A stretch of 45,267 nucleotides of DNA from contig JARGGB010000021.1 of assembly GCA_029210815.1 (NCBI GenBank), positions 1 to 45,267 on the forward strand. Reading direction: 5' to 3'. Source of the DNA: Candidatus Brevefilum sp. (lineage in GTDB: Bacteria > Chloroflexota > Anaerolineae > Anaerolineales > Anaerolineaceae). Positions 2,531-27,660 of the stretch are shown here, one piece after another. The notes under the pieces were generated by a model, which did no database searches, was not told the DNA's origin, and saw only the letters and a program-made list of their open reading frames with translations. Each line of letters opens with the position of its first letter. Position 1 is the first letter of the stretch. A program made the position numbers and the translations under genes.

Positions 2531-3577
2531 TTAGCCCTTGAGGAAGTCCTGTAAGGATTCCTTGCTGATGCGATAAGCACTGCCAATTTTACGTGCTTTC
2601 AAATCGCCTGCTTCAATGACTGCCACCACATCCTCGGCCGCAACTTTTAGATATTGTGCAGCTTCGGCAGGGGTCATGACATCAGGCATTGCACCTGCAG
2701 CAGCACCAGCTGGGACACCAGCGCTATCCTGCTGGTCTCGGTTTCGAAGTGCAGAGCTGAGCGCGTCCCCAATACCCATTCCGGCGCCAATGCCTGCTGT
2801 TAAGCCAGCACCGCCAGAAGGATTTTGAGCAGCATCTCGCATGGCATCTGCAGCCTGGAGCTGGGTGTAAGTTTGCATATCCAGCATACCCATTGCCCGC
2901 AGTTCCTCAGCAGATTTATCGGAGGGTTTCAGGTTTCCGATGTAGAAGGATTTAAGCTGCAAACCTATTGCCAGAAAATCATCCTGGGTTTTTGCGCGAA
3001 CACCAGCAGATAATTCATCCGTCAGGCCAATCAATTCGAGGACATTGCTCTTGGCTGTTGTTTCGCCCAGAAGGTCCTGTAATTTGGAGAGCAGCATGGT
3101 GCGCAAACGGTTTTCGATATCACTTGTGCGATAGTAACCCTGGGCACCCACAATCTGATTGACAAATTGCTGTGGGTCGCTCACCTGGAAGCTGTAAGTT
3201 CCAAAGCCTTGCAATAAGGCTACGCCCAGACCAACGCCAGGATTTCTGACAATGATAGGTTGGGGGGTGCCCCATTTGCGGTCGGCAAATTCTTTCATGG
3301 AGACATAGAAAACTTCAGCGGTAAAAGGTGTTCGGTTGCCAAAGGCTTTGCCAATCAAGTCGGTCAACAAGGGGATGTTTGCGGTCGTAATCGTGTGTCG
3401 ACCTGGACCAAGGACATCTAAAGCTCGACCATCTCGCATAAAGACAACATTTTGTGATTCACGGACGATGACCTGTGACCCAATCCGCAAGTCGGCAACG
3501 CCTGTTTCCGGAAAACGATGTACAATCTCGTCCTTCATCTCTTTTGGATATTCAACGACATCAAAAATTCTAGCCAT
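2531..3577 (-). CDS. SPFH-domain protein fused to an excisionase/MerR-type HTH domain
   Basis: Residues about 1-225 resemble the YdjI-type SPFH (stomatin/prohibitin/flotillin-like) family, once labelled virion core protein. Visible marks are an N-terminal MARIFDVVEYP, the stretch VIVRESQNVVFMRDGRA and the block VRNPGVGLGVALLQGFGTYSF. A middle Gly/Ala/Met-rich linker follows (about 255-300, GGAGLTAGIGAGMGIGDAL). The last 48 residues (from MTPAEAAQYLKV, about 301-348) look like a helix-turn-helix of the excisionase (HTH_17) type. YdjI relatives are linked in Bacillus to PspA-type membrane stress modules, usually with a zinc ribbon; the HTH here is unusual. The gene sits 53 bp after the 175-residue ORF and probably shares its transcript. 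Function is inferred only. Confidence 0.75.
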   Translation of the reverse strand: MARIFDVVEYPKEMKDEIVHRFPETGVADLRIGSQVIVRESQNVVFMRDGRALDVLGPGRHTITTANIPLLTDLIGKAFGNRTPFTAEVFYVSMKEFADRKWGTPQPIIVRNPGVGLGVALLQGFGTYSFQVSDPQQFVNQIVGAQGYYRTSDIENRLRTMLLSKLQDLLGETTAKSNVLELIGLTDELSAGVRAKTQDDFLAIGLQLKSFYIGNLKPSDKSAEELRAMGMLDMQTYTQLQAADAMRDAAQNPSGGAGLTAGIGAGMGIGDALSSALRNRDQQDSAGVPAGAAAGAMPDVMTPAEAAQYLKVAAEDVVAVIEAGDLKARKIGSAYRISKESLQDFLKG

Positions 3578-9187: not shown

Positions 9188-9919
9188 TTACAGGTATTGG
9201 CCGCCGTCAACACGCAAAAATGCACCCGTTGTAAAATCGCTCTTGATCAGGTGGATAGCGTTTTCCGCAGCGATATCGGGACTGCCTGCCCTTTGTAATG
9301 GGACGTATTTATTAGCGTAAGCTTCTAAATCGACATCTTCTTTTCCTGCTAAAGGCAGCATAATTCCAAGCCCAAGTGCATTTACTGTGATGCGCGGCGC
9401 GAGTTCAATAGCATACATGCGCGTCATCTCAACAAGGGCAAGTTTTGTCAGTCGATACGCAAAATGATCTGGCTCGTGTTGAATTATTTGGGCATCTGCA
9501 ATATTTAAAACCCTACCTTGCCGATCGGGGGGTAATTGTTTGGCAAATGCCTGGATCAAGAAAAAGGGTGCCTTCAAATTGACGCGAAATTGTTTTTCCC
9601 AAATTTCTCTGCTGGTTTCTAAACCGCTTCCCCTGAGATAGAGGGCGGCGTTGTTTATGAGGATATCCACGCAAACAAAATGATTATGAATTTGCGGGAA
9701 AATGTCGTTGACCGCATCCGAATGATTGAAATTTGCACCAATTGTGATTGCCTCAACACCTGTTTCTCGAGCAAGTTGTGCTGTTTCTTCAGCTGGTTCA
9801 TGGGAGCTGTTGTAGTGAATTACAAGATTTGCACCTTCTTTTGCTAAGGCAAGGGCAAATGCTCGGCCTAACCGGACCCCACCACCCGTAACCAGTGCCG
9901 TCTTATGCTTCAAATCCAT
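9188..9919 (-). CDS. PTR1/FolM-type pteridine (dihydrofolate/dihydromonapterin) reductase
   Basis: This is an SDR of 243 residues whose features match pteridine reductases rather than ordinary SDRs. The cofactor loop is TGGGVRLG (11-18), with the Arg of the TGxxxRxG variant that favours NADPH. At 13 residues before the catalytic Tyr155 of YRLTK stands Asp142, not Ser; this Asp-Tyr-Lys triad is the hallmark of Leishmania PTR1 (Asp181/Tyr194/Lys198) and of E. coli FolM. LINNAALY (88-95) is standard. Its start overlaps the end of the Lgt-FolK gene by 17 bp, so it is co-translated with a folate enzyme. I infer reduction of dihydrofolate or a dihydropterin, perhaps replacing or backing up FolA. 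Exact substrate not proven. Confidence 0.8.
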   Translation of the reverse strand: MDLKHKTALVTGGGVRLGRAFALALAKEGANLVIHYNSSHEPAEETAQLARETGVEAITIGANFNHSDAVNDIFPQIHNHFVCVDILINNAALYLRGSGLETSREIWEKQFRVNLKAPFFLIQAFAKQLPPDRQGRVLNIADAQIIQHEPDHFAYRLTKLALVEMTRMYAIELAPRITVNALGLGIMLPLAGKEDVDLEAYANKYVPLQRAGSPDIAAENAIHLIKSDFTTGAFLRVDGGQYL

Positions 9920-11144
9920 TTTCCACCTCTTTTAACATTTGGATCTTGTGGTCATCTTTCAATTGATCAATGATATCTTCAATCAAAATGCCGCTTGCTG
10001 GGTGCCTGAAATCAGGTGCAAGCTCTTTAAGCGGGATTGCAACGTATTTATATTTTATCAGATTAGGATCGGGTATTTGGTTACCATTAGTTATAAACAC
10101 GTCGATGTCATGGGTGAGGATATCCAAATCAATCGGCACATCGACTTTATTACCGGGTTCCCTGCCTAAATCAACTTCGATGTTTTTTAGCCGTGACCGC
10201 AAATCATTGTAAGAAAGCCCGGTGTCAATCTCAATAACCTTGTTGTAAAAGAACGATGGATCGGATTGTTTTTGGACGTCTTTGGATTTGTAAGTATGGG
10301 AAATCCCTCGAATTTTTGAAAAATCCTCCAGTTTTCTGACTGCCTCTGGCATATTCTTGTCAGGATCCTGGTTTGAGCCAAGGCTGATAAAAACCGGGAT
10401 ATGTTTGCGAACCTGATAACTCTTCTTGTAAATCAATGCGATCCCAAGTATAAGTAAGGCAAAACCAAAAAGCTGCCAAATATCAAATTTTCCAATAAGG
10501 CTTTTCTCTGAAACAAAGGCACGAGTGATAAGAGCGATAAGCCCTGCGGTACTCAAGGTGAGGCTAAATAATGTTCCACTCCTCAGAAAACCAGTGGTTT
10601 TAAAAGCCTTTGTGTGATAAAGCATCGCCAGTAAATAAATAGCTGCTAAGAAGAGTGCATACAGGTTCACTGGATGCCTGGTCTCGTTCCACAATTGGAT
10701 CCCCCATGGTAATTCAGTGGGCAAACCATAGCCATTGCCGGTGGTGTAATTTGATAGGTGTATGCCTGCAAGTAGAAACAGGAAGAAAGGTGTCAGGGTA
10801 TCCAGGCTTGGCCACAAAGGAAGATGCTTTTTTTGCGCAAAGATTAAGGCAGCCAGTAAACTTACAAAGATGCCAAAACTGGGATTTAACATCGACGGCG
10901 TCAATGAAAACATTGCCATGGGATTTCCAGCCAATGCTGATGGGTTTTGGAGGACAAAGCCTACCCGTGCGCTAATAAGACCAGCGATCAACCCCAAAAG
11001 GATGCTGTTCTCAATTAGATCTCCGTTGGTGCCTAGGTTCTTTGAAAAGTAAGATGTTGTCCATAACCCGATGAATAAGCTTGCTATCAGAATAAAGCCT
11101 GCTGCTTGAATTGAGACCGGACCGATATTGATCATAGGGAACAT
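9903..11144 (-). CDS. folK: Fusion: Lgt-like membrane domain + 6-hydroxymethyldihydropterin pyrophosphokinase (FolK)
   Basis: Residues about 1-245 are a polytopic membrane domain like prolipoprotein diacylglyceryl transferase: it begins with an Lgt-type IGPVSIQAAGFIL, has LPTELPWGIQLWNETRHPVNLY (first 20 residues at about 141-160; compare the RHPTQLYE motif) and ends with a last helix ILGIALIYK. The usual Arg-rich RxGNFxNG motif reads HLSNYTTGNGYG (129-140) and has lost the Arg, so Lgt activity is doubtful. Residues about 249-395 are HPPK: FISLGSN (252-258), DLGRE (325-329), IDLDIL with the Mg-binding Asp pair (338-343) and AIPLKELAPDFRHP (369-382). HPPK adds pyrophosphate to hydroxymethyldihydropterin in folate synthesis. 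The ORF has no break at the junction, so this is a true fusion in this assembly. It lies between a tlpA-like gene and a pteridine reductase. Confidence 0.88.
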   Translation of the reverse strand: MFPMINIGPVSIQAAGFILIASLFIGLWTTSYFSKNLGTNGDLIENSILLGLIAGLISARVGFVLQNPSALAGNPMAMFSLTPSMLNPSFGIFVSLLAALIFAQKKHLPLWPSLDTLTPFFLFLLAGIHLSNYTTGNGYGLPTELPWGIQLWNETRHPVNLYALFLAAIYLLAMLYHTKAFKTTGFLRSGTLFSLTLSTAGLIALITRAFVSEKSLIGKFDIWQLFGFALLILGIALIYKKSYQVRKHIPVFISLGSNQDPDKNMPEAVRKLEDFSKIRGISHTYKSKDVQKQSDPSFFYNKVIEIDTGLSYNDLRSRLKNIEVDLGREPGNKVDVPIDLDILTHDIDVFITNGNQIPDPNLIKYKYVAIPLKELAPDFRHPASGILIEDIIDQLKDDHKIQMLKEVENGFEA

Positions 11145-14060: not shown

Positions 14061-14519
14061 ATGAGAGTAGCAGTTGCTGCAGACCATGGTGGGTTTCCTT
14101 TAAAGGATGTGGTTATAAATACCCTGAAGCAAATGGGGCACACCCCAATTGACCTGGGTACGGATTCAACAAAAAGTGTGGACTACCCGGATTTTGCCGA
14201 GCTTGCTGGAAAAGCCATTGTTCATGGGGAGGCGGATCGAGCGGTTGCACTTTGCGGCTCAGGTGTCGGCATTTGTATTGCAGGCAATAAGATTAAGGGC
14301 GTTTATGCTTGTTTGTGTCATGACACCTATTCCGCCGCCCAGGGCGTGGAGCATGATCATATGAATATGTTGTGTTTAGGCGCAAGGGTGATCGGCGATG
14401 AATTGGCAAAAAAGATTGTGGAAGCCTTCATTACAGCTGAACCATCAGATGAACCAAGACACTTGAGAAGAGTTGAGAAAACCCGATTGATTGAAGCAAA
14501 AGGAATGAAAGGACGATAA
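14061..14519 (+). CDS. rpiB: Ribose-5-phosphate isomerase B (RpiB/LacA family)
   Basis: RpiB interconverts ribose 5-phosphate and ribulose 5-phosphate. The 152-residue product starts MRVAVAADHGGFPLK with the AADHGG phosphate loop, holds the catalytic Cys in ALCGSGVGICIAGNK (about 65-79), and has the DHMNMLCLGARVIG segment typical of the family. I took the ATG at 14061, which has AGAAAGG 9 nt before it; the upstream in-frame TTG at 14055 is too close to that site. Its stop overlaps the next start (TAATG). Substrate allose 6-phosphate is possible for the family, but the operon context points to ribose 5-phosphate. Confidence 0.95.
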   Translation: MRVAVAADHGGFPLKDVVINTLKQMGHTPIDLGTDSTKSVDYPDFAELAGKAIVHGEADRAVALCGSGVGICIAGNKIKGVYACLCHDTYSAAQGVEHDHMNMLCLGARVIGDELAKKIVEAFITAEPSDEPRHLRRVEKTRLIEAKGMKGR

Positions 14520-17284
14520 TGAGCAGCGTTATAAAATTAGGTCTATTAGGACAATCTATTTGGTATGACAATCTCCAAAGATCATTAATTCAAGACGGCA
14601 CCCTCAAGAACAGGATAGAAAAGCGAGAAATTTTGGGCGTAACATCAAACCCAAGTATCTTTGAGAAAGCAATCTCATCATCCAAAGACTATCATGATGA
14701 TTTGCAAACGATGTCCTGGGCTGGATTGTCAGCTGAGGAAATGTTCTACCGGTTAGCTATCAAAGATATTCAAGACCTGGCAGATTTATTTATGCCGTAC
14801 TTTGAATCAACAGGCGGCAGAGATGGCTTTGTGAGTTTAGAGGTTAATCCGAAGCTTGCCTATGACACACAGCGGACTATTGATGAGGCGCTATGGTTAT
14901 GGAAAACTGTGGACCGACCGAACCTGCTGGTAAAAATTCCAGCAACCAAAGAAGGCTTGCCAGCAATCACTGATGTGATCGCTGCAGGTGTAAACGTCAA
15001 TGTGACATTGATTTTTTCTCGAAAGAGATATATTGAGGTGATGGATGCCTACTTACAGGGTCTTGAAAAACGATTAGAGGCTGGCGAAGACATTTCTAAT
15101 ATTGCCTCTGTCGGATCCTTCTTTGTTTCACGGCTTGAAAATAAAGCAGACGGTCGATTGCAAAAGATCATAGACCAGGGCGGCGAGAATGCTGAAAAAG
15201 CTAAATCCCTTTTTGGAAAAATCGCAGTTGCAAACACAAGGCTTGCTTACCTGGATTATGAAGCATTCTTCAGTTCAGATCGCTTTAAGAAATTAGCTGA
15301 AGCAGGTGCCATGAAGCAAAGGCCACTTTGGGCTTCGACCAGCACAAAAAATCCGAATTACAGTGATATTAAATATGTGGAGTCGCTGGTTGCTGAAAAC
15401 TCAGTAAACACCGTTCCCCCAGAGACGCTGGATGCTTTTATTGACCATGGCGATCCGGTAATCACAATTTATGATGATCTGGACCAGGCTGAAAAGGATT
15501 TCGAGGCATTGGCGGAATTGGGCATCTCGATTGATGAAATCACCAAAGAGCTTGAAGATGAAGGCGTGCAAAAATTCGCTGAATCCTTCAATAAGCTCCT
15601 GGCTGTTATTGAGGAACAAAAAAATAAATTTAGAAAAAATCTTGGCAGCCTGGCTGAAAAGATCCCAACAGAGGTGGAGGCATTTAAATCCTTTGATGTG
15701 ATCGGAAGAATGCATCGTACGGACCCTACAATCTGGACTGAGGATCCTGACGGACAAAAGGTTGTACAAACGCGTTTAGGGTGGCTTGGTTTACCAGATG
15801 AGGGTCTAGCATTGATAGCATCATTGAACAAGCTTTTGATGGATTGCCGCTCAGAAGGGTACGAAAAAGTTTTGCTTTTAGGAATGGGCGGCTCGTCTTT
15901 GGCACCAGAGACTATCAGCCTTGTTTTAGGTGACAAAATCAACGGGTTGTCTCTGAAAATTTTGGATTCAACAATTCCAACCCAGGTTAGAGAAGCAGAA
16001 GCCTGGGTTGATTACGAGAAAACTGTGTTCATCGCTGCAAGTAAATCCGGAACAACAACAGAAACTCTTTCCCTCTACCAGTATTTCTGGGAAAAATCTG
16101 AAGCTGTCCTTGGTGATAAGCGACCTCTGCACTTTATTGCAATCACGGACCCCGGCAGCAAGCTTGCGAAAATGGGGCAGGCTTCAGGTTTTCGAGCTGT
16201 TTTTACTGCCAACCCAAATGTGGGCGGTCGGTATTCTGCTTTGAGCCATTTTGGACTGGTGCCAGCCGCATTGATGGGTGTCGATCTGGAACGATTTTTA
16301 TGTCAGGCACAGGAAATGGCAGAAAGATGTTCACCATCAACTCCTATTGAGTTGAACCTGGGTGCGCTGCTTGGTATTCTTGTAGGATTGGGTGACAGCA
16401 GCGGGAAAGATAAATTGACCATTTTGGCGGACGAAAGACTGGTGCCTGTGGGTGCCTGGCTCGAGCAGCTCGTTGCTGAGAGCAGCGGCAAACAGGGCAG
16501 GGGGATTGTCCCGGTCGAAGGGGAAAGCCTTCTTGCCCCGGAAAATTATCGAATGGATCGTTTGTTTGTTTACCTGCGAGAAACAGGTGAGCATGACGAT
16601 TTTGTAGGCGCACTGGAAAATAGAGGGCATACTGTCGTTTCGCTTGATGTTCCAGATCCTTATGAATTAGCTGCGCAATTCTATCTATGGGAGATTGTCA
16701 TTGCTGTCGCCAGCGGGATCATTGGGGTGAATGCATTTGACCAGCCTGATGTTCAGGACAATAAGAATCGCACGAAGGAAAAGATTGCACGATATCAAGA
16801 AACTGGCGTATTGGAAGAGCCAGAAGCGATCTGGGAGCAGGGTGGAACGAAGGTCTTTGGCGTTGAATTTGATGGGCTTTCAACTTGCGAATCGGTGGGT
16901 GAGGTGATTGAAAAATTCATCAAGCTGTCCAAAGATGGTGATTACATCGCATTGAATGCGTATCTTCCACGCAATGAGAAAACAAAAGAAAAGCTTCAAA
17001 TCCTGCGCAATCATATTTTGCAGGAATCAGGCAGGGCAACCACCCTGGGATTTGGACCCCGTTTCTTACACTCTACCGGGCAGCTTCATAAAGGCGGCGC
17101 AAACAACGGTGTTTTTATCCAGATCACGCAAGATGACCCCTCCGATTTGCCTATTCCTGGCCTGGATTATTCCTTTGGTATCCTGGCAAGGGCTCAGGCG
17201 CTTGGAGATTTAGAAGCTTTGTTAGCCCGTGATCGGCGTGCCATTCGCATCCATTTGGGTCCAGAGGATATGATTGAGGTTTGA
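14519..17284 (+). CDS. tal-pgi: Bifunctional transaldolase / glucose-6-phosphate isomerase
   Basis: This 921-residue fusion joins transaldolase (about 1-370) and phosphoglucose isomerase (about 385-921). In the first part, GVTSNPSIFEKAI (about 40-52) and the Schiff-base Lys139 in LLVKIPATKEGLPAI are seen. In the second part the SIS fold shows LLGMGGSSLAPE (near 455), AASKSGTTTETLSL and the NVGGRYSALSHFGLV segment. Such Tal-Pgi fusions are known from several bacterial groups. The protein would link fructose 6-phosphate made by transaldolase and transketolase to glucose 6-phosphate, feeding glycogen synthesis and ppgK metabolism encoded nearby. The start codon shares one base with the rpiB stop. 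A strong terminator ends the operon. Confidence 0.96.
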   Translation: MSSVIKLGLLGQSIWYDNLQRSLIQDGTLKNRIEKREILGVTSNPSIFEKAISSSKDYHDDLQTMSWAGLSAEEMFYRLAIKDIQDLADLFMPYFESTGGRDGFVSLEVNPKLAYDTQRTIDEALWLWKTVDRPNLLVKIPATKEGLPAITDVIAAGVNVNVTLIFSRKRYIEVMDAYLQGLEKRLEAGEDISNIASVGSFFVSRLENKADGRLQKIIDQGGENAEKAKSLFGKIAVANTRLAYLDYEAFFSSDRFKKLAEAGAMKQRPLWASTSTKNPNYSDIKYVESLVAENSVNTVPPETLDAFIDHGDPVITIYDDLDQAEKDFEALAELGISIDEITKELEDEGVQKFAESFNKLLAVIEEQKNKFRKNLGSLAEKIPTEVEAFKSFDVIGRMHRTDPTIWTEDPDGQKVVQTRLGWLGLPDEGLALIASLNKLLMDCRSEGYEKVLLLGMGGSSLAPETISLVLGDKINGLSLKILDSTIPTQVREAEAWVDYEKTVFIAASKSGTTTETLSLYQYFWEKSEAVLGDKRPLHFIAITDPGSKLAKMGQASGFRAVFTANPNVGGRYSALSHFGLVPAALMGVDLERFLCQAQEMAERCSPSTPIELNLGALLGILVGLGDSSGKDKLTILADERLVPVGAWLEQLVAESSGKQGRGIVPVEGESLLAPENYRMDRLFVYLRETGEHDDFVGALENRGHTVVSLDVPDPYELAAQFYLWEIVIAVASGIIGVNAFDQPDVQDNKNRTKEKIARYQETGVLEEPEAIWEQGGTKVFGVEFDGLSTCESVGEVIEKFIKLSKDGDYIALNAYLPRNEKTKEKLQILRNHILQESGRATTLGFGPRFLHSTGQLHKGGANNGVFIQITQDDPSDLPIPGLDYSFGILARAQALGDLEALLARDRRAIRIHLGPEDMIEV

Positions 17285-19026: not shown

Positions 19027-19779
19027 ATGACAGTTTTAGGAATTGATATTGGTGGTTCAGGCATCAAAGGGGCACCGGTTAATGTGAAAACGGGCGAGTT
19101 TTTAGAGGAGCGTTACCGAATTCCGACTCCCTCTCCTGGTAAACCTGAGCAGGTGATTGAAGTCATCAAACAAATCGTTGATCATTTTAATTGGGAAGGA
19201 AAAATCGGTGCAGGATTTCCGGGTGTTGTTCGGCGCGGTGTGATCGGAACAGCCGCCAATGTTAGCAAGGATTGGATTGGACAAAACCTGGCAAAATTGA
19301 TTAAAGACGCAACAGGAAGCAAAACGACCATCCTGAACGATGCAGATGCCGCAGGTCTGGCGGAGATGCGATTTGGAAGCGGTAAGAAGTATGAGGATGA
19401 GTTTGTTTTATTCCTCACCATTGGTACTGGTATTGGATCAGCCTTGTTTGTTAAGCGTGAACTGTGGCCAAATTCAGAACTTGGGCACCTAAACATCCGC
19501 GGGAAAGATGCGGAAAGGATAGCCGGTGATGGGGTAAGGTCTGAAAAAAATCTCTCCTGGAAAAAATGGGGAAAACGTTTGGATAAGGTTTTACAAACTT
19601 ATGAATTTCTACTTAATCCTGACGTTATCATCCTTGGCGGGGGTGTTAGCAATAAATTTGACAATTATGGGAAATATCTGAAAAATATTGAGGCAGAGGT
19701 GATCCCTGCTGTCTTGAGAAACCAGGCTGGCATTGTAGGCGCAGCGATGGCGGCTGCAGAATCAATCATTATTGATTGA
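19027..19779 (+). CDS. ppgK: ROK-family polyphosphate glucokinase
   Basis: This ROK-family kinase most likely phosphorylates glucose with polyphosphate (or ATP) to glucose 6-phosphate. At 250 residues it is of PpgK rather than ordinary ROK length (300 or more). It has the phosphate loop DIGGSGIKG (7-15), the catalytic Asp105 in [22 protein letters not shown] and the PpgK-like WPNSELGHL stretch with a Glu and His that bind glucose. It lacks the zinc motif CxCGxxGC of the NagC/ROK type, as PpgK proteins do. It ends the ruvX-mltG-ppgK unit. The product enters the Tal-Pgi and glycogen routes encoded on both sides. The polyphosphate preference is inferred from similarity. Confidence 0.88.
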
Positions 19780-20506: not shown

Positions 20507-21451
20507 ATGAGCGACCAGAATCATCAAAAGCAAATCCATCCGGTTCTTGCGACCACCTTGGGAATTTTATGTGTTTCCACAGCATCGATCTTTATTAGGT
20601 TTGCACAGGATGAAGCTTCTGCAATCGTGATTGCTGCTTCGCGCTTAATCGTCGCGAGCTTAATTATCGTGCCATTTGTTTTAATCAAACAAAAAGGGGA
20701 ATGGTCACGACTGTCAAGAACGGATTTTGGCAAGGCAATTTTATCAGGTGTTTTCCTGGCTTTACATTTTACGACATGGATCAACTCGCTTCGCTTAACG
20801 TCCATAGCAAGTTCAATTGTATTGGTCACCACAACCCCATTGTGGGTTGCGCTTTTATCCCCCGCTGTTTTAAAAGAACCTATTAGAAAATCGGTTGTTG
20901 CAGGCTTAGTGGTATCAATGGCTGGAAGTGTTGTTGTTGGTTTGGCAAACACCTGTCAATTTCAGGGCGGTATTTTAACATGTGATGGACAGCTTGCAAG
21001 CGGCGGTTCTATGTTGGGAAACCTTTTAGCCCTAACCGGCGCCTGGATGGCGGCAGGATACATATTGATGGGACGCCAACTGCGAAAAAATCTCACGACC
21101 CTGTCTTATGCCGGCCTGGTGTATGGGATTGCTGCCCTTGTCCTTGTGGTGATTATTGTGCTCAGAAAAGAACCGGTTTTTTCGTATTCGCGTCAAACGT
21201 ATTTCTGGCTGGCAGCCCTGGGTATTGTACCGCAGCTGATGGGACATTCACTGCTTAATTTAGCCCTTAAATATATATCGGCAGCTTATGTCTCCCTGAC
21301 TCTTTTGGGCGAACCGATTGGGACGGTGATTTTAGCCTTAATTTTTCTTAAAGAAAGCCCCACATTACTTGAGGGAATTGGGGCTGTTTTAATTTTGGCA
21401 GGGATTGTGATTGCCTCATTTTGGCGTGATAAAAAAGTTAATGCGGCATGA
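20507..21451 (+). CDS. EamA/DMT-superfamily transporter
   Basis: This is a ten-helix drug/metabolite-type exporter of the EamA family in the cytoplasmic membrane, 314 residues from the ATG at 20507. Two EamA repeats are visible: the first begins LGILCVSTASIFIRFAQDEAS and the second GNLLALTGAWMAAGYILMGR; the ends of each repeat carry the usual ALxxTSIASSIVLVTTTPLW-like and AAYVSLTLLGEPIGTVILAL stretches (shown in part). Substrate cannot be predicted; amino acids or metabolites are typical. A longer frame begins with TTG at 20471, but that TTG is the -35 hexamer itself and cannot be in the mRNA. The end overlaps the malQ end by 14 bp. Confidence 0.9.
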   Translation: MSDQNHQKQIHPVLATTLGILCVSTASIFIRFAQDEASAIVIAASRLIVASLIIVPFVLIKQKGEWSRLSRTDFGKAILSGVFLALHFTTWINSLRLTSIASSIVLVTTTPLWVALLSPAVLKEPIRKSVVAGLVVSMAGSVVVGLANTCQFQGGILTCDGQLASGGSMLGNLLALTGAWMAAGYILMGRQLRKNLTTLSYAGLVYGIAALVLVVIIVLRKEPVFSYSRQTYFWLAALGIVPQLMGHSLLNLALKYISAAYVSLTLLGEPIGTVILALIFLKESPTLLEGIGAVLILAGIVIASFWRDKKVNAA

Positions 21452-22997
21452 CCTGCCCTGAAGTTTGTTCCTCAAGTTTCTTGCGAATACTTTCCTTTTC
21501 ATCTTCTGGTAAGCGTCCATATAAATAGTTAGTTTCGTGCAGTCTATTTACAAGGCTTTCATTAATCGCATCGGGGTGAATACGCCAACCCCAATTTCCT
21601 GAGGCATTCCCGGGATAGTTCATGCGTGCCCAGTTGCCAAGGCTTAGAAAATCCTGCATGGGTGAAAGGACCCATGCAGCGGTCGATCGCCACAATGTGC
21701 GAATCATAGACCAGGAAATATCATTGCCTGACCGCGCCAGGTAACGCCGGCAAAAATCCTTTTCTCTTTCTGGGGCGCTTGTGTACCAACCCAGGGTCGT
21801 ATCATTATCATGTGTGCCGGTGTAGGCTACACAATTGACAGGGTAATTGTGGGGGAGGAAATCATCATCCGGATCGGATGCAAACGCAAATTGTAAGATT
21901 TTCATTCCCGGCAGATTAAAATCATCTCGCATTTGCTTAACTTCGGTTGTGATAACACCCAGATCCTCTGCAATAATGGGGAGTTCACCCAACTGGGTTT
22001 TGACCGCACTGAAGAAATCCTGACCTGGTCCCTTGACCCATCTTCCTTCTTCGGCGGTCTCATTGCCAAATGGGATTTCCCAGTACGCTTCAAATCCACG
22101 AAAATGATCAAGCCTGATGATGTCAACCTGGTTCAGGACAGACGCCATTCGCTTAAGCCACCATTGGTAATTATTCTTTTTGTGTAGGTCCCATTTGTAA
22201 AGCGGGTTTCCCCATAACTGACCGGTTCTTGAAAAATAATCTGGCGGAACGCCTGCAACGACTGTTGGCAAGCCTTCTTGATCCAGGTAGAAAAGTTCCT
22301 TATTCGCCCATACATCGGCACTGTCATAAGCGACGAAGATTGGAATATCGCCGATAATGCGAATGCCTTTCTTTTTGGCATAAGAACGCAAGCCTTGCCA
22401 TTGTTCATTGAAAATAAATTGCAGATAATTCTGAAATTCAATGTCTTCTTGATGTTCGGCAATGAAGGCTTTTAATATTTCAGGGTCTCTTTTCCGCAGG
22501 GATTCTGGCCATTCACTCCATGAGGCATTGCCATGTTCGGCTTTGATGGCCATGAAGGTAGCAAAGGGTTCCAACCACTCCTTTTGAGATTCTTTGAAAC
22601 TTGAAAACGTATCCAGGTATTTTTTTTGCTTGATTGACCTGAACTGTTTATAAGACCTTTTGAGGAGTTTGATTTTCCATTCAATGACGGGACCATAATC
22701 CACTTTTTCAATAGGAAAATCAGGCCTGTCAGCAAGATCGGATTTCTTCAGCAGTCCCTGATCCAGCAACCGGGCTGCACTGATGATATAAGGATTGCCA
22801 GCAAAAGCAGAAAAGCATTGGTAGGGGGAATCGCCATAGCCAGTGGGTCCCAAGGGCAAAACCTGCCAGAATTGGGTCCCTGTCCGAGCGAGGAAATCGA
22901 TCCATCGGTAGGCTTCTGGACCTAAATCTCCGATACCGTCAGGACCTGGCAGGCTGGTCGGGTGAAGAAGAATACCTGATGCTCGTTGTTGTTTCAT
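21438..22997 (-). CDS. malQ: 4-alpha-glucanotransferase (amylomaltase)
   Basis: MalQ, a GH77 enzyme, transfers maltosyl and longer units between alpha-1,4-glucans, releasing glucose. At 519 residues it has bacterial amylomaltase length. It starts with SGILLHPTSLPGPDGIGDLG, then FWQVLPLGPTGYGDSPYQ. The nucleophile Asp lies in IIRLDHFRGFEAYW, the acid/base Glu in IIAEDLGVIT and the third Asp in GTHDNDTTLGWY. It follows glgA after 18 bp, last gene of the cinA-amidohydrolase-glgA-malQ operon. With GlgA it makes and reshapes storage glucan; released glucose could go to the ppgK product. Confidence 0.97.
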   Translation of the reverse strand: MKQQRASGILLHPTSLPGPDGIGDLGPEAYRWIDFLARTGTQFWQVLPLGPTGYGDSPYQCFSAFAGNPYIISAARLLDQGLLKKSDLADRPDFPIEKVDYGPVIEWKIKLLKRSYKQFRSIKQKKYLDTFSSFKESQKEWLEPFATFMAIKAEHGNASWSEWPESLRKRDPEILKAFIAEHQEDIEFQNYLQFIFNEQWQGLRSYAKKKGIRIIGDIPIFVAYDSADVWANKELFYLDQEGLPTVVAGVPPDYFSRTGQLWGNPLYKWDLHKKNNYQWWLKRMASVLNQVDIIRLDHFRGFEAYWEIPFGNETAEEGRWVKGPGQDFFSAVKTQLGELPIIAEDLGVITTEVKQMRDDFNLPGMKILQFAFASDPDDDFLPHNYPVNCVAYTGTHDNDTTLGWYTSAPEREKDFCRRYLARSGNDISWSMIRTLWRSTAAWVLSPMQDFLSLGNWARMNYPGNASGNWGWRIHPDAINESLVNRLHETNYLYGRLPEDEKESIRKKLEEQTSGQVMPH

Positions 22998-23015: not shown

Positions 23016-24476
23016 TTATTTATTGTTGATCAAACTACAATAGGTATCGATATACTTTTGGGCTGAATTTTCCCATGAAAAATCAATTCTCATTCCATTG
23101 TGCTGGATTTTTTTCCACAAAGTGGGATTTTGATAAAGACGTATCGCGCGCTGCATGGTGGTGGCAAAGACAGAGGGGTATGGTCTATCAAACAAGAAGC
23201 CTGTGCCGTCATCCGCTTTGCGTGTTACATGTGTGATGGTGTCCACCAACCCGCCTGTTGCCCTAGCCACGGGCACACAGCCGTAACGCATTGATATCAT
23301 TTGCGAGAGTCCGCAGGGTTCGTATCGCGAGGGCATCATAAAAATATCTGCGCCTGCGTATAGCCGATGTGCCAGTTTACCGTCAAAATTGATAATTGAA
23401 CGAACCCTCCCGGGAAATTCGTTTTCCAAATCTATCGCCATTTGTTCAATGGTTGGGTTTCCCGTCCCAAGAATGATCGCCTGCCAGGGTGAATCTTGTA
23501 GATATTTCAACCCTTTGAGGGCGATATCAATGCCCTTTTGTGCATCCATCCGGCTGATCAATGTTAACAGCGGAATATTTTCATCTTGTAAAAGGTTAAA
23601 TTCTTGCAGCAAATCTAATTTGTTGATTGGTCGTTGTGACAAATCATCATTCGAGAAATTTTGTGCAATGACTTTATCCGTTGCTGGATCCCATAAATCA
23701 AGGTCAAGCCCGTTGACAATGCCCTGAATTGCAGATTTCCTAGTCTTTAAAAAACCTTCCAGGCCGCACCCAAATTCGGGCGTGAGGATCTCTTCAGCAT
23801 AATGCGGAGAAACGGCAATAATTCTATCTGCATGCAAAAGCCCAAGAGGAAGGGGAGCATGCCTTGCCCATTCTGGAAGAACGGTATTTTCAGATGGCGG
23901 GAGTCTGTAATCTGAGAGTGCTTTTTGAACGCCAAATCCCATGAAGGGCAAATTGTGGAGGGATAAGATGGTTTTTGTCTTCGAGAGATGTGGTGAGAGA
24001 ATATCCCTGGTTTTTAATGCATAAATCGCTGTAGCAGTGTGCCAGTCGTTTGCCTGGATTATATCAACCCTAAAATCAAGAAACTTGGCTAAACCCAAAC
24101 AAGCAAGGGAGAAAAAAACAAATTTATAGCCGTCGTGAATGGGTTCCAGTGAGTATACTGGTGATTTTTCGTCAATCGGGTCACCATCTAATAAATAGAC
24201 TGGCAAACCATCTTTATCGTAATGATATACCTGGCAGTTTACCAGACCCTCTGAATTTTTAACCCCAAATTCACCAAGGAGTTTTGGTTTGAACCCTTTT
24301 TGTTTGACAGCAAAATGAAAGGGCAAAACGACCCTGATGTCTACGTTTTTAGATTTTGGCAGGGTTTTTGAGAGATTGCGAATAGCATCTGGTAAAGCAC
24401 CAGCAACATCTCCCAATCCCCCAACTTTTACAAAGGGTTCTGCTTCAGCTGTTAGAAAAAGAACATTGAGGGTCAT
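23016..24476 (-). CDS. glgA: Glycogen synthase (GT5)
   Basis: GlgA adds glucose from ADP-glucose (or UDP-glucose) to the non-reducing end of alpha-1,4-glucan. The 486-residue protein begins with the GT5 signature VLFLTAEAEPFVKVGGLGDV (about 5-24; the Lys of KVGG binds the nucleotide sugar). HNLPFMGFG, the VNGLDLDLWDP loop, LISRMDAQKGID and the MMPSRYEPCGLSQM motif with the retaining-GT Glu all follow. No glgC is in the window, so the sugar donor has to be made elsewhere. Genes on both sides form one operon with short gaps (15 and 18 bp). Confidence 0.96.
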   Translation of the reverse strand: MTLNVLFLTAEAEPFVKVGGLGDVAGALPDAIRNLSKTLPKSKNVDIRVVLPFHFAVKQKGFKPKLLGEFGVKNSEGLVNCQVYHYDKDGLPVYLLDGDPIDEKSPVYSLEPIHDGYKFVFFSLACLGLAKFLDFRVDIIQANDWHTATAIYALKTRDILSPHLSKTKTILSLHNLPFMGFGVQKALSDYRLPPSENTVLPEWARHAPLPLGLLHADRIIAVSPHYAEEILTPEFGCGLEGFLKTRKSAIQGIVNGLDLDLWDPATDKVIAQNFSNDDLSQRPINKLDLLQEFNLLQDENIPLLTLISRMDAQKGIDIALKGLKYLQDSPWQAIILGTGNPTIEQMAIDLENEFPGRVRSIINFDGKLAHRLYAGADIFMMPSRYEPCGLSQMISMRYGCVPVARATGGLVDTITHVTRKADDGTGFLFDRPYPSVFATTMQRAIRLYQNPTLWKKIQHNGMRIDFSWENSAQKYIDTYCSLINNK

Positions 24477-24491
24477 TTAATTTCTCGCCTT

Positions 24492-26480
24492 CTATTTGTT
24501 TTTTAAGTATTTTTTGATGATTTCGATATAATCATGCGTTTCAGCCATGTCAGAGGACGCACCACTATATTCAATTAATTCCGCAATTAAACTGGATTTC
24601 AACTCTGCATCTTCCCGGCTCCAGGTTCGGCTTTTTACCTCAAGGAAATGACCCAAATCAGGATTGATGAGTGTATCAATATTGATGTAAAAATCAACCC
24701 CTTTATATTGAATTTTAAACCGTTTGCGATCCTTTTCGATGTCAATTTCGCTGGTGGGGTCGAAATATTCCCGGTAAAAGCGCAGAGAATGGGTTGCCGG
24801 TGCATAATACCGACTGCGGGAGAGCATCACATCTCGTTCAAAGGAAGCTTCACGCGTTAGGCCAACAAGGGTCAATCGCCCACGCACATTGGTGATTTCA
24901 CCTTTTCTTCCGATAAACTCATCCTCCCTGTATCGTAAAAGCCCTTGCTTCTTTTTATCAAAAAAGAAGTAGGTGTCGTATTCGTGGTAATGTCGGGTGT
25001 AGATGATATCAATACCATCCTGATCCAGGGCTTCAATGATTTTGTCCGGATCGGTAATACGAACCTTTGCCTGGACTTCAAAGCTTTCTTCTTGCATTGC
25101 GCCGCCGATGGCAACCAGTTTTGACAGGACCGATTGCTCACGTTCAATCAAGAAGGCATCGATTTTCTTTGCATAATCCTGCGCTTCTGTCATCAACTGC
25201 GCTTCGTCAAGGGTTAACAAGACATGATCTCGCATTAACCACTTTCCATTGACCATCATATCGCTGATATCTGTTGATTTTGAAGCATATATTACCTGAG
25301 CGTAAAGACCCTCCTGATCACGTTCAAACTTTGGCGAATTATGCAATGTATTGATATCGACGAGGATCATATCTGCTCGTTTACCAGGAACAAGGGAGCC
25401 TGTGATGTGGTCCATGTGAACGGCTTTTGCCCCCATACTGGTTGCCATTGCCAGCGTTTGTCTGGCTGGCAAGGCAGTTGGGTCACCAGAGGAGGCTTTT
25501 GCAATCATGGAAGCTAAACGCATTTCTTCGACCATATCCAGATCGTTATTAGAAGCTGGTCCGTCGGTGCCAATCCCGACGTTTACCCCCAGCTCCAGCA
25601 TTTTAGTAACATTTGCAAAACCTGAAGCCAATTTAAGGTTGGATGAAGGATTATGTGCAACACCAGCTTTGTGTTTTTTCAGTTCCCGCATTTCACCTTC
25701 ATCGATGTGCACGCAGTGCGCAGCAATTACTTTTGCATTGAAAATGCCGCGCTTTCTCACATAAGGCACAACGGGCATGCCAAATTCCTCTCGTATATCA
25801 TCAACTTCTCCGGCTGTTTCAGCGATGTGGGTGTGCAGCGGAACATCGTATTTTACAGCAAGTTCCGTACTTGCGCGATAAATTTCATCCGTGCAAGTGT
25901 AGGGCGCATGCGGCGCAATTGAAGGGACGATCAGGGGATGGTCTTTCCAGGTTTTGATGAATTCTTCTGCATCTGCCAATGCTTCTTCGTAGTATGTGGC
26001 ATCAGGTGAAGGGAATTTAAGGACAGATTGTGAGCAAATGGCTCTCAAGCCTGCCTCTGCAGTGGCTTTGGCAACATCTGATTCATAATAATACATATCC
26101 ACAAATGTTGTCACACCGGAGCGAATGCATTCAGCGCAGGCTAATTTTGTGCCCAGGCGAACGAATTCCGGCGAGACAAATTCTCGTTCCACGGGCATCA
26201 TATATCCCATTAACCACACATCAAGGCGCAGATCGTCAGCCAGTCCGCGAAGGAGAGTCATGGGGACATGGGTGTGGGCATTGATCAGCCCGGGCATCAG
26301 GATTTTTTGGTTACAATCTACAAGCTCGTGAGCCTGAAATTCTTGTAAAATTTTCTTTTCAGATCCGACAGCAACAATGCTGTCACCTTCTACAACAACC
26401 GCACCCGGGTCATAAATATTAAAATCCTTGTCCATGGTGAGCACAATAGCGTTATGGAAAATCCAATCAGCTTGTTTCAT
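24492..26480 (-). CDS. Fusion: MtaD/SAH-deaminase-like amidohydrolase + CYTH domain
   Basis: Residues about 1-445 are a metal-dependent amidohydrolase of the TrzA/MtaD type (5-methylthioadenosine or S-adenosylhomocysteine deaminase): metal ligands in INAHTH (His70, His72), HTHIAE (His217, His219), AAHCVH (His256) and GTDGPASNND (Asp307), plus APHAPYT. Numbering is from the first of two adjacent Met codons. Residues about 465-660 look like a CYTH (triphosphate tunnel) domain: an ExQxK start (Glu469, Lys473), RxR (Arg517, Arg519), YINIDTL and LEVKSR near 614-618. I know of no standard enzyme with this pair. A deaminase acting on a nucleoside with a phosphohydrolase or binding module is possible. 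The second ATG is better spaced behind TAGGAG, which contains the cinA stop. It sits in the glgA-malQ operon. Confidence 0.82.
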   Translation of the reverse strand: MKQADWIFHNAIVLTMDKDFNIYDPGAVVVEGDSIVAVGSEKKILQEFQAHELVDCNQKILMPGLINAHTHVPMTLLRGLADDLRLDVWLMGYMMPVEREFVSPEFVRLGTKLACAECIRSGVTTFVDMYYYESDVAKATAEAGLRAICSQSVLKFPSPDATYYEEALADAEEFIKTWKDHPLIVPSIAPHAPYTCTDEIYRASTELAVKYDVPLHTHIAETAGEVDDIREEFGMPVVPYVRKRGIFNAKVIAAHCVHIDEGEMRELKKHKAGVAHNPSSNLKLASGFANVTKMLELGVNVGIGTDGPASNNDLDMVEEMRLASMIAKASSGDPTALPARQTLAMATSMGAKAVHMDHITGSLVPGKRADMILVDINTLHNSPKFERDQEGLYAQVIYASKSTDISDMMVNGKWLMRDHVLLTLDEAQLMTEAQDYAKKIDAFLIEREQSVLSKLVAIGGAMQEESFEVQAKVRITDPDKIIEALDQDGIDIIYTRHYHEYDTYFFFDKKKQGLLRYREDEFIGRKGEITNVRGRLTLVGLTREASFERDVMLSRSRYYAPATHSLRFYREYFDPTSEIDIEKDRKRFKIQYKGVDFYINIDTLINPDLGHFLEVKSRTWSREDAELKSSLIAELIEYSGASSDMAETHDYIEIIKKYLKNK

Positions 26481-26487
26481 CATTCTC

Positions 26488-27660
26488 CTATCTTGTTTTT
26501 TTAATTCTTGTAATCAACTGCCGTCGTAAAAAGTCTAAACCAATATTTTGTGCCCAAAGCGGGATGTATTCTTTTGGACCACCATATTTGCGAGTTTTGG
26601 ATACTTTTTGCCTTGAATTTTGAAAATACAAGTGAGCTGTTGTGTCTTCGTTAATATTGACCGCGATCCCAAACCAAACATCACAGCCAATATTCCTTTG
26701 AACATCTTCAAAAGTCTTTTCAAAATCTAATATATTTTCAGGTTTTTCATTCAATATGTTTGCATGAAGCTGGTCAGGCTGTCCCAATTTTAATCGTTCT
26801 GTGAATTTTCCGTCCAGACCGTATTCTAAAATCCCTAATTTAATATCATGTTGGTTCGTGATTCGGCTGATGATCAATGCCAGGGTTTCCTCATCCTGCC
26901 CGTAAATATTTTCGCCTAAACGGGATTTCAGTTGCTGGATGATGGGATCGCTTAATCTTTTAGCTTCATCTACAGATTCTGCCTTAGTGGTGACCCTGAT
27001 ATCCACCTGACCTGGATGAGCAAGCAAACCTACTGTGGGGTTTGACATTTGTTCAAGATCATCGATAATCTCATCGATCACAGATTCACCGATCGAGGCA
27101 GCGTGCAGAACCGTTGCCTTGATGATTTGATTCTTCAACTCATATTTCTGGCTCAAATAGGGGATGATCGATTCATGTAAAATGAATTCCATCTCGCGAG
27201 GAACGCCAGGCAAAGAAATGACGCAGGAATCCCCAACCTCAACGATAAAGCAAGGGGCAGTTCCTACTGGATTATGAACTTCAATTGCGCCTTCTGGAAT
27301 AAATGCCTGGCGGCGGTTGTTTTCTGTTGGTTGTCTTCCATAGTATATGAAATGGTTTAGGATATCTTCCCAAAGCTTGGGATCAAAAACCAGTTCACGA
27401 TCTGTTGCTTTTGCAACTGCCAGGCGAGTTGGGTCATCAACGGTAGGACCAAGTCCACCTGTTGTCATGACGACATCCGCTCGAGTCAGGGATTCCTTGA
27501 TTGTTGAAGCGATCCTGGCGGGGTTGTCACCGATTGTGATAATTCTAAATATATCTATCCCATGATCCCTTAATGTGCGAGCGATGTAGGTTGAATTGGT
27601 GTCCGTGATTTCACCCAGTAATAGTTCAGTACCAATTGTGATGATTTCTAAAGTTGGCAT
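26488..27660 (-). CDS. cinA: CinA-like protein with degenerate C-terminal deamidase domain
   Basis: CinA proteins combine an N-terminal MoCF-like nucleotide pyrophosphatase domain and a C-terminal NMN deamidase (PncC). The first domain here is intact: IITIGTELLLGEITDTNS (about 6-23), TTGGLGPTVDDPTR (about 66-79), NPVGTAPCF and LPGVPREME (about 150-158). A KH-like middle part follows. In the last 130 residues the place of the catalytic ESCTGG motif is EYGLDG (279-284), without the Ser and Thr; later parts are also divergent (NINEDTTAHLYF). NMN deamidase activity is thus not expected, although the domain may keep its fold. First gene of the operon with the amidohydrolase, glgA and malQ; AGAGGA precedes the start. 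Confidence 0.88.
   Translation of the reverse strand: MPTLEIITIGTELLLGEITDTNSTYIARTLRDHGIDIFRIITIGDNPARIASTIKESLTRADVVMTTGGLGPTVDDPTRLAVAKATDRELVFDPKLWEDILNHFIYYGRQPTENNRRQAFIPEGAIEVHNPVGTAPCFIVEVGDSCVISLPGVPREMEFILHESIIPYLSQKYELKNQIIKATVLHAASIGESVIDEIIDDLEQMSNPTVGLLAHPGQVDIRVTTKAESVDEAKRLSDPIIQQLKSRLGENIYGQDEETLALIISRITNQHDIKLGILEYGLDGKFTERLKLGQPDQLHANILNEKPENILDFEKTFEDVQRNIGCDVWFGIAVNINEDTTAHLYFQNSRQKVSKTRKYGGPKEYIPLWAQNIGLDFLRRQLITRIKKTR

Follow-up and report, generated by a model that had tools for sequence, protein, structure and literature searches.

What does a protein do that carries a deaminase-like amidohydrolase and a triphosphate-tunnel (CYTH-like) domain on one chain? The question is raised by a gene in a 45,267-nucleotide stretch of DNA from Candidatus Brevefilum sp. 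(here called the window, i.e., the whole stretch that was analyzed). The gene is an open reading frame (ORF) of 663 amino acids in one uninterrupted frame with an ATG start, located on the minus strand at 24492-26483. A sequence-only reading of the DNA had placed the start of this frame at 24492, as found here, and its end at 26480, one codon short of 26483. It had also described an amidohydrolase and a CYTH domain in the same frame. This was borne out, and both domain identities were right: the fusion of a deaminase-like amidohydrolase with a CYTH/triphosphate-tunnel domain is real and was confirmed. The gene is divided as follows.

24492..26483, minus strand: fused gene, amidohydrolase plus CYTH/TTM-like domain (663 aa; family profiles and predicted structure)
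25131..26483, minus strand: N-terminal MTA/SAH/5'-deoxyadenosine-deaminase-like amidohydrolase, residues 1-451 (PF01979, PDB matches, ligand invariance)
24495..25130, minus strand: C-terminal triphosphate-tunnel (CYTH-like) domain, residues 452-663, with an altered metal-2 site (profiles, predicted fold, conservation)

The amidohydrolase half and its likely substrate

Searching the N-terminal half with PF01979 revealed a match at residues 61-416 (1.2e-72). The nearest solved relatives (3lnp, 4f0r, 4dzh, 4dyk, and 4gbd) match the first 445 residues only. Two of them, 4f0r, named 5-methylthioadenosine/S-adenosylhomocysteine deaminase, and 4gbd, which we take to be the MTA deaminase PA3170 of P. 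aeruginosa, were aligned over nearly the whole domain (7.3e-92 and 1e-82, respectively). The best NCBIfam models were PRK09045 (TRZ/ATZ), PRK06038, and PRK07228 (5'-deoxyadenosine deaminase); the same models matched 27/27 members of the full-length alignment, counted irrespective of cut-offs. The window protein reached the cut-off of none of the 25 NCBIfam models listed (457 bits versus 540 for PRK09045, 359 versus 522 for PRK07228, and 312 versus 779 for PRK15493).

The residue counts cover 74 distinct tails, the window's and 73 others, and the fused sequences to which they belong, with loci from the 41-genome, class, and phylum surveys among the sources; exact duplicates and two short frames (L003 and L010) were left out beforehand. 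H70, H72, H219, E222, H256, and D307 were invariant in all 74 fused sequences, as were W90, E99, N282, K284, S287, and S311. By the amidohydrolase family pattern, H70, H72, H219, H256, and D307 are presumably the metal ligands and E222 the catalytic glutamate. The sequence-only reading had seen all metal ligands in the domain, and their invariance agrees with it.

Assignment of the N-terminal half to the MTA/SAH/5'-deoxyadenosine-type deaminases is well supported by these sequence comparisons. We infer that its substrate is most likely a 5'-modified adenosine, with 5'-deoxyadenosine or MTA as the best guess. The genome itself encodes an MTA phosphorylase (TIGR01694, over cut-off), an SAH hydrolase with the motif HVTTE, and a PF00962 adenosine-deaminase-family protein. 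On this ground MTA, SAH, or adenosine as the sole substrate was set aside, which is a mild argument only. None of the enzymes looked for and found in the genome is dedicated to 5'-deoxyadenosine, which argues mildly for that substrate.

The sequence-only reading had pointed toward purine salvage. A route of this kind through conversion of SAH to SIH was rejected as not favored because the SAH hydrolases examined all carry HxTxE. This motif was present in 8/8 proteins, namely, that of the genome itself and those of seven hand-picked relatives, out of 39 genomes with matches; two overlapping opposite-strand frames (L245 and L248) were left out of the count. In the excerpts of PMC10978960 that deal with these motifs, HxTxE is associated with a preference for SAH and HxExK with one for SIH.

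The C-terminal half has a predicted tunnel fold

The window tail alone (residues 452-663) gave no Pfam match at E values up to 1, and TIGR00318 (cyaB) matched the window protein weakly (6.4e-4, 19.6 bits; cut-off, 57.95). Alignments were generated from 21 tails (A1) and then from 28 tails (A2) of related genomes, the second including more distant members. In A1, cyaB was matched by 17/21 relatives' tails at E values up to 10 (best, 2.5e-7) and PF01928 (CYTH) by 4/21 at the same threshold. In A2, 15/28 tails matched PF01928 at E values up to 0.01 (best, 1.6e-8), the window's protein remaining unmatched. When 41 genomes were searched in six frames with PF01928, four fused ORFs lay above the Pfam cut-off and one below it, the others being unlisted at an E value of 0.01. 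The CYTH domain named in the sequence-only reading was therefore recovered from the relatives and not from the window protein by itself, and the assignment needs those relatives because the window protein alone has no PF01928 match.

Profile-profile alignment of the tails with 16 standalone CYTHs, which were picked from related genomes by their ExExK pattern, gave an hhalign E value of 1.7e-5 and a probability of 78.5 for this one pair, with the motif residues in register. Searching the PDB sequences with the tail alignment as a profile revealed nothing at E values up to 10, and PDB matches to the tail came from fold comparison only.

AlphaFold2, run with the 21-row alignment, predicted eight strands for the tail (pLDDT 88.6, pTM 0.84). 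The full-length model scored similarly (pLDDT 89.7, pTM 0.81), these scores coming without a domain-domain error map. The tail model is a tunnel-shaped barrel, as anticipated in the sequence-only reading. Of the two outcomes that this reading had named as refuting its proposal, a prediction lacking such a barrel and the lack of a CYTH match, neither occurred, the CYTH match coming from the relatives. Foldseek gave SaTTM (7ns9, 2.7e-8) as its best match and a class IV cyclase at 3.0e-8. The first 17 rows consisted of SaTTM, class IV adenylyl cyclases or proteins so annotated, archaeal proteins of unknown function (2een, 1yem, and 2dc4), plant TTMs, and mouse thiamine triphosphatase. Superposition of the tail model with VIA-align gave Z values of 18.8 for 2een (rmsd 2.4 over 170 residues), 17.4 for 7ns9, 16.4 for 3n0z, and 15.6 for AtTTM1 (7z67). 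The eight-stranded tunnel fold of the CYTH/TTM superfamily is settled as far as prediction allows.

From row 18 onward, the Foldseek matches were Mediator subunits, and Mediator chains were likewise found among the structural matches with Z values (8gxq_r, 14.1; 7emf_R, 13.7). The tunnel could accordingly be a structural or protein-binding scaffold without a small ligand, like Mediator Med18/Med20. A pure scaffold would have no need of an anion clamp and a metal-1 Glu, however, and these are invariant in the tails (K473, R517, R519, K584, R586, R588, D603, and E615), which makes a scaffold quite unlikely in our estimate.

The metal-2 site is altered and the triphosphate clamp is retained

Comparison of the 74 tails revealed a set of residues that is invariant throughout: E469-x-Q471-x-K473, D503-x-Y505, R517-x-R519, K584-x-R586-x-R588, D603, and E615-x-K617. 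With protein numbering equal to tail numbering plus 451, these correspond to E18-x-Q20-x-K22, D52-x-Y54, R66-x-R68, K133-x-R135-x-R137, D152, and E164-x-K166 of the tail. Of the hallmarks listed in the sequence-only reading, E-x-Q-x-K and R-x-R are present as described, and the "late acidic/Lys strand" is E-x-K. The residues for triphosphate binding and for metal 1 are retained, i.e., the metal-1 Glu E615, the Arg/Lys clamps, and D-x-Y.

Three positions are changed in every tail. The N-terminal ExExK motif of hydrolytic TTMs is replaced by ExQxK (74/74); the strand-8 ExE is replaced by ExK, with loss of the second (metal-2) Glu (74/74); and the strand-4 Lys is lost, tail position 89 being I, T, V, L, or M (74/74). 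As a control, all 30 standalone CYTH loci of related genomes were taken without a motif filter. All but one (L111) fit the profile, and two of the 29 (L108 and L096) were each uncovered at one motif. At the same positions, the standalone proteins covered there carry E-x-E-x-K in 28/28, E-x-E in 28/28, and the strand-4 Lys (TYKG) in 29/29 cases. The altered site and the clamp are kept by selection.

According to the excerpts of PMC8233210 on TTM motifs, the first strand-8 Glu binds metal 1 family-wide, and the second serves metal 2 and is needed for hydrolysis. The excerpted text of PMC4641920 describes an acidic patch that holds metal 2 and is made up of two strand-1 Glu, one further Glu, and one strand-8 Glu; mutation of this patch is stated there to hamper catalysis in several TTMs. 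Two points of the alignment call for caution: hhalign sets D58 and not D52 (tail numbering) against the canonical Asp, the correspondence of DxY with SaTTM having been drawn by eye, and the strand-5 register (R556 and R558) is uncertain. Because this register is unfixed, replacement of an acidic-patch Glu by R556/R558 is not claimed.

The aromatic residue of the ThTPase motif W/YxRxR is mostly absent, the position being Arg in 58/74 tails, Tyr in 4/74, and Leu in the window protein. Class IV cyclases, as characterized in the same excerpts of PMC8233210, have Ala in place of the second strand-8 Glu, an HF motif, and a small residue in place of the first Arg of RxR. None of this signature is found in the tails, which have ExK instead of ExA, no HF motif (0/74), and the first Arg of RxR (74/74). 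Class IV adenylyl cyclase activity of the tunnel is therefore highly improbable, even though cyaB was the best named model for 17/21 tails and 3n0z was among the best structural matches; the score of the window protein also lies far below the cut-off of that model. Since the tails depart from the published motif rules, they are not typical hydrolytic TTMs, ThTPases, or cyclases. Triphosphate hydrolysis or cyclization, which the sequence-only reading had mentioned for CYTH proteins, finds no support in the replaced metal-2 residues and the missing HF motif, with the plant TTMs keeping a hydrolytic role in play.

A tunnel that has lost metal 2 need not be inactive: plant TTM1/2 lack ExExK and ExE and still show pyrophosphatase activity. 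In the excerpts of PMC8233210, the plant cluster-7 TTMs are described as lacking both motifs, retaining RxR and DxY, and cleaving pyrophosphate. The tunnel might likewise be an active hydrolase of another kind, e.g., a one-metal pyrophosphatase/tripolyphosphatase as plant TTM1/2 may be, in which case the protein would be bifunctional. RxR and DxY in 74/74 tails and the structural match to AtTTM1 fit such an enzyme. A Lys at the metal-2 position of every tail disfavors a second metal, however, the strand-4 Lys is gone too, and the W/YxRxR aromatic that cluster 7 retains is nearly always missing. An active hydrolase is unlikely in our judgment, if the least so of the alternatives.

The possibility was also considered that the tunnel transfers phosphate or handles polyphosphate as VTC polymerases do. 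It rests on E-x-K, which precedes the C-terminal SKY/SKF in 11/11 bacterial VTC-family proteins that were aligned (of 12 fetched; strand assigned by eye), and on Vtc4, which lacks the acidic patch according to the excerpted text of PMC4641920. Such an activity is very unlikely, given that the tails have no profile relation to PF09359 members (hhalign E value of 0.026, probability of 1.9) and read ExQxK on strand 1, versus RxExK or RxDxK in the 11 VTC-family proteins.

The fusion is widespread in Chloroflexota

The tail was found in 38/41 nearby genomes (the genome itself and 40 relatives), in 72/120 genomes of the class (the genome itself included), and in 40/201 genomes of a phylum sample, 18 of them outside the class. 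In a wider genome scan, those of the best 80 of 565 loci that are named to a group were from Chloroflexota, mostly Anaerolineae; L177 is labeled only "bacterium CG2_30_54_10." The isolates Pelolinea submarina, Longilinea arvoryzae, Ornatilinea apprima, and Anaerolinea thermolimosa carry the fusion, which is therefore not an assembly artifact. The taxonomic distribution, a check proposed in the sequence-only reading, indicates that the fusion is ancient and has persisted beyond one class of the phylum.

When the deaminase half by itself was used to search the class (E values up to 1e-100), the result was a clean split. At identities of at least 47%, 74 rows were obtained, 73 of which adjoin a tail match (two of these, G061 and G148, run into a contig end); the 74th row (G044) matched over residues 2-319 only, in a frame of 371 aa. 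Five rows at 41-45% identity had no tail match; the frames are 430-444 aa long for three of these rows and 532 aa (G067) and 522 aa (G101) long for the other two. Pairwise distances in one half correlate with those in the other (r = 0.87 across 75 aligned rows, among which the window protein appears twice), and by this measure the two domains evolve together. A single early fusion followed by vertical descent would be the simplest account.

Searches of virus and plasmid collections revealed no relative of the tail. The fused query matched 867 records of the plasmid collection, none with one place covering at least 80%. In the literature searched on fusion or CYTH architectures, no account of an amidohydrolase-CYTH fusion was found.

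Genomic neighborhood

In the window, the fusion is flanked on the same strand by the following genes.

26488..27660, minus strand: CinA-like gene, 4 nt upstream of the fusion (MoCF domain plus CinA KH)
23016..24476, minus strand: glgA, 15 nt downstream of the fusion (TIGR02095, 2.1e-137)
21438..22997, minus strand: malQ, 18 nt past glgA (PF02446, 2.7e-186)

Because of these short spacings, cotranscription is likely here. For the CinA-like protein, no PF02464 (CinA C-terminal) match was listed, and its last ~135 residues look degenerate by eye.

Comparison of loci showed how far this arrangement extends. In the main sample (80 named loci), cinA was the commonest neighbor of the fusion, lying upstream on the same strand in 63/68 loci with at least 1.5 kb of upstream sequence and within 150 nt in 43 of them. 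In the same sample, glgA was the next gene in 33/73 loci, and malQ was present in 33/80. Among 18 loci chosen from lineages elsewhere in the class and phylum, cinA was upstream in 0/17 and glgA was next in 0/16. At L200, L201, L202, and L205, which belong to other classes, the next gene resembled dephospho-CoA kinase by eye. No universal neighbor of the fusion was found across the compared loci, so the neighbors do not tell its function; nor did the neighbor genes at these loci lend support to a role in handling SAM by-products.

These counts show that glgA and malQ are lineage-specific neighbors and that the glycogen setting is local. The coupling to glycogen or carbon storage that the sequence-only reading had suggested was rejected as a general role, since the fusion persists where glgA is not the next gene. 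The same reading had named a polyphosphate-glucokinase-like gene nearby. A ROK-family gene does lie at 19027-19776, but no evidence was found for a link between CYTH and polyphosphate, and beyond this gene nothing connecting the neighbors to polyphosphate was found.

Other unusual proteins were observed in the window and the genome. A 413-aa ORF (9903-11144, minus strand) combines LGT (prolipoprotein diacylglyceryl transferase; 1.3e-19, residues 4-239) with HPPK/folK (8.2e-21, residues 252-377); for a membrane enzyme to be joined to a folate enzyme is unusual. A 921-aa ORF (14519-17284, plus strand), downstream of transketolase, encodes a transaldolase fused to phosphoglucose isomerase. The ORF at 2531-3577 (minus strand) encodes an SPFH/Band 7 protein with a terminal helix-turn-helix domain (HTH_17, residues 300-347). 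The genome has no PF01928 match at an E value of 0.01 or better, one being present in 34/41 genomes of the set; it does encode a VTC-family tunnel-domain protein (PF09359, 2.6e-35; L221, G000:C55:31022-31690).

Proposed function

5'-Deoxyadenosine and methylthioadenosine are by-products of the use of SAM. We propose, tentatively and at somewhat below an even chance, that the fusion protein deaminates 5'-modified adenosines and that its tunnel is a non-hydrolyzing, probably regulatory, triphosphate-binding domain. The analysis established the fusion, both folds (that of the tunnel by prediction), the conservation, and the replacement of the metal-2 residues. In the proposed mechanism, one polypeptide joins a metal-dependent deaminase to a tunnel that keeps the residues for Mg-triphosphate (E615, the Arg/Lys clamps, and D-x-Y). 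The metal-2 site that activates the attacking water is lost, with K617 and Q471 standing in its place. The tunnel would then bind ATP or another polyphosphorylated compound uncut, and the bound ligand would tune or position the deaminase. Non-hydrolyzing binding of a triphosphate is plausible from the residue pattern; the identity of the ligand and the regulatory (sensor) role are speculative. The barrel may be a sensor because the cutting site has been rebuilt alike in every copy examined.

In a bolder form, which is rather doubtful, the tunnel would be an enzyme turned receptor: a fixed Lys/Gln pair would stand in for the catalytic metal-2 site, and across Chloroflexota the domain would sense the level of ATP or inorganic (poly)phosphate and set the pace of SAM by-product salvage accordingly. 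We know of no precedent for an allosteric role of the TTM fold in bacteria. If the tunnel binds its ligand uncut, a small number of fixed substitutions would have turned a widespread catalytic fold into a ligand sensor, and triphosphate levels would be linked to purine/SAM salvage within one protein. The family also matters for annotation, as none of the listed curated models gives either half a precise name: no NCBIfam cut-off was reached, the tail has no Pfam match, and its relatives lie near the CYTH threshold.

Comparison with known systems

The N-terminal domain resembles the MtaD/DadD deaminases (4f0r and 4gbd) over nearly its whole length, with all metal ligands. The solved relatives lack the tail, however, and the rows of the class without a tail fall below the fused ones in identity (41-45% versus at least 47%). 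With CYTH/TTM proteins (SaTTM, AtTTM3, YgiF, and class IV adenylyl cyclase), the tail shares the eight-stranded tunnel, the RxR clamp, DxY, the metal-1 Glu, and the K-x-R-x-R strand; it differs in the replacement of the metal-2 acids by Gln and Lys and in the loss of the strand-4 Lys. The partners of CYTH/TTM domains elsewhere are HD, exopolyphosphatase, kinase, and CHAD domains in the excerpts of PMC8233210, whereas here an amidohydrolase stands in front. The VTC polyphosphate polymerase domains have E-x-K on the last tunnel strand in common with the tail and are unlike it in strand 1 and in profile. The plant TTM1/2 proteins, as portrayed in the excerpted source, have a kinase-type partner and differ from the fused tails, in which the W/YxRxR aromatic is not conserved, but they share with the fusion the altered metal motifs, the retained RxR and DxY, and the two-domain layout.
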